From an uncultured Tidjanibacter sp. (GTDB lineage Bacteria; Bacteroidota; Bacteroidia; Bacteroidales; Rikenellaceae), in contig CALVCL010000003.1 in NCBI GenBank assembly GCA_944326085.1, positions 1 to 64,000 on the forward strand: a stretch of 64,000 nt of DNA, given 5' to 3'. Position numbers and translations under genes: made by a program. Shown piece by piece: positions 32,434 to 34,847 of this stretch. Below the pieces are notes generated by a model that worked only from the letters and a program-made list of their open reading frames with translations, had not been told where the DNA came from and made no database searches. Each line of letters starts with the position of its first letter. Position 1 is the stretch's first letter.

Positions 32434-32474
32434 AAAATGTGTTGTTTACATTAAGTAAATGCAAAATGCGGGTG

Positions 32475-32505
32475 CAAATATAGTTATTATCCCGATAAAT
32501 ACAAA
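32475..32505 (-). promoter_or_regulatory. Promoter of the rpsF operon
   Basis: On the minus strand TTTG (32502-32505), a 19-bp spacer and TATATTTG (32475-32482) form a perfect Bacteroidetes promoter, leaving a 5' leader of about 35 bases. Confidence 0.82.
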
Positions 32506-32555
32506 CATGTGACACACTAAATAGTGTGCCACATGCATTTTACGACAAGATTTTA

Positions 32556-33092: not shown

Positions 33093-33122
33093 AACTCTAT
33101 GTCAGGTTAAGTTTTATGCAGG

Positions 33123-33153
33123 CTAATATAATATAATATAATATAAAAACAAA
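33123..33153 (-). promoter_or_regulatory. Promoter whose 19-bp spacer is a TAATA repeat tract
   Basis: On the minus strand TTTG (33150-33153), a 19-bp spacer (33131-33149) and TATATTAG (33123-33130, one base off TAnnTTTG) form a promoter 31 bases before the ATG at 33092. The spacer and -7 element are built from a tandem pentanucleotide repeat (see 33124-33146). Confidence 0.55.
33124..33146. repeat. TAATA tandem repeat, 4.6 copies
   Basis: Four perfect copies of the 5-base unit TAATA and a partial fifth run without interruption. Such tracts gain or lose units by slipped-strand mispairing. Each step would change the promoter spacer between 14, 19 and 24 bp. Confidence 0.9.
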
Positions 33154-33200: not shown

Positions 33201-34622
33201 TTATTTTGCGATTATCCGTTTTTCTATTTCCTCTATCATCTGACCGAATGTCTTATCGGTTTCCATAAGATTGGACACCGTCTTGCATGCATGGAGGACC
33301 GTTGCATGATTTTTACCTCCTATGGCAGCGCCTATTGTTGCCAGCGGGGCCTTGGTATGCCGCTTGCAAAAATACATCGCAATCTGACGTGCCTGAGCTA
33401 CCTCGCGGGTTCGTTTAGCAGAATCGAAAACCGCCTGTTCAACACTAAGATACTCACACACCACATTTCTTATATGGTCTATGGTAATCTCCTTCTGGCT
33501 AGTCTGCACATACGCTTTGAGTATCTCCTTTGCCAAGGATATTGTTATCTTACGTCCGAGAAACGTGGCGTGAGCAACCAACGACGACAAGGCCCCCTCT
33601 ATCTCTCGAATATTGGCATTAATGTTTTCCGCAAAGAAGCTGACCACATCATCCGGAATATCTGCATTGAAACGCGCGGCCTTACTCTTGATGATTTTGA
33701 CTTTAGTTTCATAGTCAGGCGGAAGCAACTCTGCTGCCAATCCCCAACGAAACCTTGTAAGCAACCTGTCATTTATATCCTTAAGCTCTACAGGACGCTT
33801 GTCGGATGTCAGAATAAGCTGTTTGCCTGAAAGGTGCAAATGATTGAATATATTAAAAAATGCATTCTGCGTACTTTCCTTATTGCCGGACAGTTCCTGT
33901 ATGTCATCAATTATCAACACATCTATCATCTGATAGAAATGTATGAAATCATTCACCTCCTTATTCAGCACGGCAGACGTGTATTGCGCCTGAAATTTGT
34001 TCATAGACACATACAGCACCTGAAGGTTCGGATGACGCTGTTTTATCTCCATGCCTATTGCCTGAGCAACATGTGTCTTGCCGAGTCCTGAATTACCAAA
34101 CACATAAAGGGGATTGTATGCCGTATTGCCCGGATTGAGGGCAATGGAAAGTCCCGCAGAACGTGCAAGTCTGTTACAGTCGCCTTCTATGAATGTCTCG
34201 AATGTATAATTCGGATTCAACTGCGAATCTATTACTATACGCTTGAGCCCCGGTATCGTAAATGGATTTTTTATATTTGCGGTATCGGTCTGTGCGACAT
34301 ATTTCGAAACCGGCGTAGCGTTAGCCTCCTGTGGGTATGCAACCTGTTGCTGTCTATGATGTTCTACATTTGGTATTGAATACCTGAGCTTTGTTTTTTG
34401 CCCAAAAGCCTCATGTATTATAGGGCGCAAGAACGGGATATAGTGTTTTTCTATATGGTAAACGTACGCCTCGTTAGGAACACGCAACTGCAGAGTCGTA
34501 CCATCGAAATTTGGCACGATAGGCTTGAACCACTTCACAAACTCCTCCTGCGAAGTCTGCTCCCTTATTTGGGACAAACAGTGTTGCCATATGTCGCTGT
34601 ATGTTGAGTTGTTGATAAGCAT
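33201..34622 (-). CDS. dnaA: Chromosomal replication initiator DnaA
   Basis: A 473-residue DnaA: the N-terminal DnaB/partner-binding domain (1-85) starts YSDIWQHCLSQIREQTSQEEFVKWF. A linker follows, then the AAA+ domain with Walker A GNSGLGKTH and Walker B VLIIDDIQ. The C-terminal DnaA-box-binding domain carries GGKNHATVLHACKTV. The ATG at 34622 is chosen over an upstream frame start at 34685, because family members begin at this point. I found no cluster of DnaA boxes in the flanking 225 bases. Confidence 0.97.
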   Translation of the reverse strand: MLINNSTYSDIWQHCLSQIREQTSQEEFVKWFKPIVPNFDGTTLQLRVPNEAYVYHIEKHYIPFLRPIIHEAFGQKTKLRYSIPNVEHHRQQQVAYPQEANATPVSKYVAQTDTANIKNPFTIPGLKRIVIDSQLNPNYTFETFIEGDCNRLARSAGLSIALNPGNTAYNPLYVFGNSGLGKTHVAQAIGMEIKQRHPNLQVLYVSMNKFQAQYTSAVLNKEVNDFIHFYQMIDVLIIDDIQELSGNKESTQNAFFNIFNHLHLSGKQLILTSDKRPVELKDINDRLLTRFRWGLAAELLPPDYETKVKIIKSKAARFNADIPDDVVSFFAENINANIREIEGALSSLVAHATFLGRKITISLAKEILKAYVQTSQKEITIDHIRNVVCEYLSVEQAVFDSAKRTREVAQARQIAMYFCKRHTKAPLATIGAAIGGKNHATVLHACKTVSNLMETDKTFGQMIEEIEKRIIAK

Positions 34623-34847
34623 ATTAACGGGGTAGTTTTTCCGAGTACAAAAGTGAGTTATAAAAATGTTAAAAAAAACCGCCATCCATGTTGCGTTTTA
34701 GTTTTTAATTTTTATAGAAAAATGGAGGTTTTCAGACAACGTCATTTTAAGTGTTTGATATAGTTAATTTCCAAAAAAACGGCTATTTTTGTATATAAAA
34801 ATATTTAGAAGATACGCTACGAATTATAGACAAAACCAATAACAACT
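34623..34847. other. Divergent dnaA-phosphosugar mutase intergenic region
   Basis: This 225-base AT-rich gap holds TATTTTTG at 34784-34791, an exact -7 element for the mutase gene (56 bases before its ATG), without a well-spaced -33. On the dnaA side I see only a weak CACTTTTG. No run of TTATCCACA-like boxes is present, so I do not call an origin. Confidence 0.45.

Follow-up and report, generated by a model that had tools for sequence, protein, structure and literature searches.

The window examined here is a 64,000-nucleotide stretch of a genome that its relatives place in the Rikenellaceae near Tidjanibacter. Within it, dnaA is followed on the same strand by a gene for a surface protein (Table 1), which stands alone behind dnaA in the window species, whereas related genomes carry recA or another, peroxiredoxin-like gene at this position (names taken from protein ends, not from a family search). 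Because the next gene after dnaA differs in relatives, the intergenic region is not alignable between species. The intergenic sequence contains only a terminator hairpin and a tandem tract. The terminator region of dnaA folds at -26.3 kcal/mol (z -2.6), and its T-rich tail TTGTTTTTAT leads directly into the TATTA tract, for which Tandem Repeats Finder gives positions 33124-33146, period 5, 4.6 copies, 100% matches and the unit TAATA; only four of the units are full.

Read directly, the minus strand runs 5'-...AATCCGGCAGTGCGAAGCTGCCGGATT TTG TTTTTATATTATATTATATTATATTAG CCTGCATAAAACTTAACCTGACATAGAGTT ATG. A preliminary description of this DNA had placed TTTG and TATATTAG exactly 19 bp apart and identified the spacer as a TAATA tract of 4.6 copies, both of which are confirmed by the direct reading and the repeat search. 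The first seven bases of TATATTAG also come from the tract. It had been overlooked that the terminator of dnaA contributes the -33 TTTG from its tail, so that its presence is expected for another reason; the -7 mismatch, the low number of full units and the lack of the tract in the relatives examined had likewise gone unmentioned. The ATG of the surface-protein gene (33092-33090) lies 31 nt downstream of the tract and 38 nt from the first base of TATATTAG (33130), and the predicted leader was placed on the basis that the -7 box occupies -12 to -5 (PMC9723704).

Table 1 Features at the dnaA/surface-protein gene junction, in window coordinates
Feature	Position	Strand	Details
Terminator of surface-protein gene	32505..32536	-	Tail gives the -33 TTTG of the rpsF promoter
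Surface-protein gene, 178 aa	32556..33092	-	Signal peptide (by inspection), C-terminal ...RVGYTF
Predicted 5' leader, about 26 nt	33093..33118	-	Start site inferred from -7 box position
Candidate -7 element TATATTAG	33123..33130	-	One mismatch to TAnnTTTG, then the favoured C
Pentanucleotide tract	33124..33146	-	Perfect, 4.6 copies, TAATA on + / TATTA on -
Promoter spacer TTTTTATATTATATTATAT, 19 nt	33131..33149	-	16 nt are repeat; direct reading
Candidate -33 element TTTG	33150..33153	-	Within T-rich tail of dnaA terminator
Intrinsic terminator of dnaA	33153..33179	-	11-bp stem, 5-nt loop, then TTGTTTTTAT
dnaA (upstream neighbour, same strand)	33201..34685	-	PF00308, PF08299

The 178-aa product had been described as an outer-membrane-type protein. 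It is secreted and outer-membrane-like, and is probably an outer-membrane protein, an identity that is likely rather than proven. A Pfam search of the protein gave no match and an NCBIfam search nothing significant or near the cut-off, and the structure predicted from the single sequence was of too low quality for use (mean pLDDT 33.9). A PDB profile match to 9hjm_I (whole-sequence E 0.0023) was weak, begins in the signal-peptide region and was not relied on. In genomes G004 and G011, relatives at about 35% identity are grouped in small tandem clusters that follow an adenylate-kinase-like gene; weaker relatives occur in other Rikenellaceae. The first cluster gene in each of these two genomes has TTG-N20-TATATTTG about 70 nt upstream of its ATG, following a terminator-like hairpin stretch and with an ordinary spacer without repeat.

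Two side observations were made on these genes. Secreted proteins of about 175 aa form an uncharacterised family in tandem clusters (L135:7647-9755 and L132:11753-12798), preceded by an adenylate-kinase-like gene, in two genomes that resemble Tidjanibacter; in the L132 cluster one member appears to have decayed, its matching frame containing a stop. For dnaA, the start of the longest ORF (34685) falls in an AT-rich stretch with short repeats (window 34600-34714), and translation probably begins at the internal Met of MLINNSTYSDIW, as the match to several relatives does not reach upstream of about residue 22.

Promoter grammar of the genome and fit of the site

The house promoter of the genome was derived from 831 upstream regions. 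An unconstrained two-block motif search drifted away from the -33 element, and counts anchored on the -7 box were used instead. The house promoter is TTG-N18-21-TAnnTTTG, usually followed by C and with a spacing peak at 19-20, which agrees with the -7/-33 promoter of B. fragilis and B. thetaiotaomicron (PMC7366714; PMC12632263). Upstream of genes, TAnnTTTG was counted 428 times in forward and 253 times in reverse orientation. A TTG lay 18-21 nt upstream of TAnnTTTG at 97 of the 354 strict sites (about 27%), compared with 21-23 at control spacings. Broken down by spacing, the 354 anchored sites had 36 TTG at 19, 49 at 20, 9 at 14 and 5 at 24, the last two spacings being at background level. The preliminary claim that the best promoters have 19-bp spacers thus stands for dnaN, rpsF and tRNA-Arg and does not extend to the genome as a whole, where 20 is at least as common and all of 18-21 are used. 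The position profile shows that T- and A-rich stretches are typical of house spacers, and the spacer in B. thetaiotaomicron is likewise AT-rich (PMC7366714). A statement in that same source reports the -33 motif as undetected in F. johnsoniae.

At the site upstream of the surface-protein gene, a perfect -33 TTTG and a 19-bp spacing inside the house window of 18-21 are combined with a -7 element that matches five of the six fixed positions of TAnnTTTG. The mismatch, A for T at position 7, concerns a position that is about 91% T in house promoters and is a real weakness of the candidate. Its promoter score, 15.3, is the best between the dnaA stop and the ATG (runner-up 10.2) and equals the 75th percentile of all genes. 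Upstream of genes, the TAnnTTAG class as a whole is not enriched on either strand (39 forward versus 36 reverse); at 19-20 nt from a TTG it was found six times forward versus once in reverse, this site counted. On these comparisons, the site fits the -33/-7 promoter of this genome well. The tract sits between its two core elements at functional spacing, in a promoter identified by sequence with one mismatch.

The next promoter downstream, that of rpsF (window 32434-32536), consists of a terminator-tail TTTG, N19 and a perfect TATATTTGC. Overlap of a terminator tail with a -33 element was found elsewhere in the genome in 12 candidates of varying quality, and compact junctions of terminator and promoter are nothing unusual there.

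Rarity of the pentanucleotide tract

A repeat census covering 1,667,500 of the 1,694,286 bases (98.4%) of the same genome, read in stretches, identified the 23-bp tract as the longest period-5 run, the next longest measuring 16 bp. It was also the sole run of a 4-8-bp unit to reach four copies. Simple repeats are scarce in this genome, with six homopolymers of 9-10 and one 11-bp dinucleotide run; neither trinucleotide runs of 14 bp nor period-7 or period-8 runs of about three copies were present in the 98.4% covered. Chance occurrence was modelled by a 20-Mb simulation with the order-2 composition of the genome's intergenic DNA, in which 16 period-5 runs measured 16 bp or more; two of these reached 18 bp, and none extended to 20 bp. 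The number of period-5 runs of at least 18 bp expected in all of the genome's intergenic DNA is about 0.02, and the tract is beyond chance expectation. The perfect array most likely arose through repeated unit duplication, and points to past slippage rather than to present switching.

The 20-mer core of the tract has a single occurrence in this genome, and a search of 59 related genomes did not find it. The tract was absent from every relative examined, comprising the 59 genomes searched by 20-mer and the nearest family loci, compared by upstream region. Judged from these comparisons, the tract is particular to the window species and the promoter plan is common to the family.

A heptamer bias was observed separately in 803 kb around dnaA from 80 Rikenellaceae loci, where, among runs of about three or more copies, 10 had a 7-bp unit and two had period 5, while periods 6 and 8 were not represented. 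The 7-bp-unit runs have differing unit sequences and are mostly intergenic or at gene ends; none of that kind was found in the window genome. Examples of the runs are L047:10334-10374, L054:9324-9354, L079:6726-6745, L090:2896-2920, L094:6505-6529, L100:9544-9574 and L101:1929-1948, among others. Intergenic heptamer repeats (TAACTGA) have been reported from Beggiatoaceae, Cyanobacteria and five Bacteroidetes (PMC4679880), a report in which Alistipes and Rikenellaceae are not named.

Repeat length and its interpretation

In-silico promoter scores were 13.4 at 3.6 units, 15.3 at 4.6 and 12.6 at 5.6, with the natural 4.6 scoring best among lengths of 1.6-7.6 units and a modest predicted loss of about 2-3 bits for one unit. 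Loss or gain of one unit brings the spacer to 14 or 24 bp, outside the 18-21 window, and one added unit puts TATATTAT, a poorer box, at the old spacing. Since the tract always runs into the -7 box at its end, that box is kept at any copy number, and a change in length therefore alters spacing alone. The preliminary description had proposed that a single unit gained or lost would probably turn the gene off. Both resulting spacings are indeed at background level among house promoters; a full on/off switch, on the other hand, is not supported, as the majority of house promoters are without a clear -33 TTG and the -7 box persists. The effect is perhaps partial, given that a clear -33 TTG is seen in just about a quarter of house promoters and that none was detected in F. 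johnsoniae. With a -33 element so weakly conserved, spacing may matter little, and a change of one unit may adjust the level of expression without abolishing it.

The reading we tentatively prefer, at a probability only just short of even, is that of a real promoter whose spacer grew by slippage and which is now length-sensitive at a low rate. The TATATTAG promoter would be a working sigma-ABfr-type promoter of the surface-protein gene, set on the tail of the dnaA terminator, with an AT-rich spacer that grew via replication slippage into the 4.6-copy pentanucleotide tract. With the current copy number, the -33 and -7 elements would stand at a favoured spacing of 19 bp, and a unit lost or gained, giving 14 or 24 bp, would lower transcription with the -7 box intact. 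The locus would accordingly act by tuning or by phase variation of the hifA/porA kind, where the start site, the loss of activity on length change and a useful rate of slippage are what we infer. Phase variation is a plausible but unproven interpretation of the tract's sequence. Its unit count, 4.6, lies below a cut-off of five units applied to phase-variable loci in Campylobacter (PMC6321876), and is comparable to that of the four-unit hsdM tract (PMC2651432). The stricter version, a slippage-driven phase-variable promoter in which 5-bp steps switch the surface protein and the terminator tail supplies the fixed -33 half, we consider unlikely.

A serious alternative, which we hold to be quite possible if below an even chance, is that the promoter is real and the repeat incidental, an AT-rich spacer of the sort normal in Bacteroidota, expanded by chance slippage, whose copy number is now effectively stable, with no phase variation. 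T-rich and A-rich spacer stretches are the rule in this genome, full units of the tract number just four, and neither the relatives nor the rest of the genome carry another such tract, so that no contingency-locus habit is apparent. An incidental repeat would nevertheless have to be reconciled with a tract far above the composition null, made of perfect copies and located exactly at a preferred spacing upstream of a surface protein.

Transcription could also come from another promoter or from dnaA read-through, TTTG...TATATTAG being a by-product of a terminator tail and an AT repeat. Against read-through argues the terminator itself, and against another promoter the gap in score between this site and the next best match in the interval (15.3 versus 10.2). 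That the TTTG belongs to the terminator tail would suit a by-product, yet terminator-tail -33 elements occur elsewhere in the genome, for example in the adjacent rpsF promoter with its perfect -7 box. The mismatch at an otherwise strongly conserved T and the lack of general enrichment of TAnnTTAG upstream of genes also favour this explanation, which we judge improbable overall. It is highly improbable that the repeat is a DNA-unwinding element of the replication origin: it is pure AT, adjoins dnaA and has dnaN nearby, but there is no DnaA-box cluster nearby, the GC skew does not change sign in this region, and other parts of the contig contain stretches richer in AT.

Comparison with known systems

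Phase variation in gut Bacteroidales has been described mainly as DNA inversion, and the literature searched, with incomplete coverage, yielded no repeat-length promoter switch in this order. If the preferred reading of a length-sensitive promoter is true, slippage control also operates on a -33/-7 promoter, and nature would have provided a way of testing, at this locus, if the poorly conserved -33 element and its spacing are of consequence in Bacteroidota. The invertible promoters known in Bacteroidales (PMC12632263, PMC4747536) resemble the proposed locus as reversibly controlled promoters for surface molecules within one and the same order. They depend on site-specific inversion between inverted repeats, whereas the window site has a terminator hairpin and a tandem tract only.

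Further parallels come from simple repeats in other bacteria. The (GACGA)4 repeat of hsdM in Haemophilus influenzae slips from 4 to 3 units at a high rate (Zaleski 2005, via PMC2651432). Like the window tract it is a four-unit pentanucleotide, and shows that so few units can slip fast; unlike the window tract, which lies in a promoter, it lies inside the reading frame and acts translationally. The hifA/hifB promoter of the same species has a (TA)9-11 spacer (van Ham 1993, via PMC3899988 and PMC2651432) and has in common with the window site that short tandem copies separate the promoter elements of a gene for a surface structure, their number setting the spacing. It is a dinucleotide between sigma-70 -35/-10 elements, serving a divergent gene pair with demonstrated variation, whereas the window site is a pentanucleotide in a Bacteroidota -33/-7 promoter, serves one gene and is a candidate for such variation. 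The porA promoter of Neisseria meningitidis has a homopolymeric G spacer (via PMC3899988) and likewise belongs to an outer-membrane protein, with a transcript level that depends on the length of the spacer repeat. There the steps are of 1 bp and the levels graded, whereas steps of 5 bp would leave the 18-21 window at once. On paper, the locus described here would work like the spacer repeats of hifA/hifB and porA.
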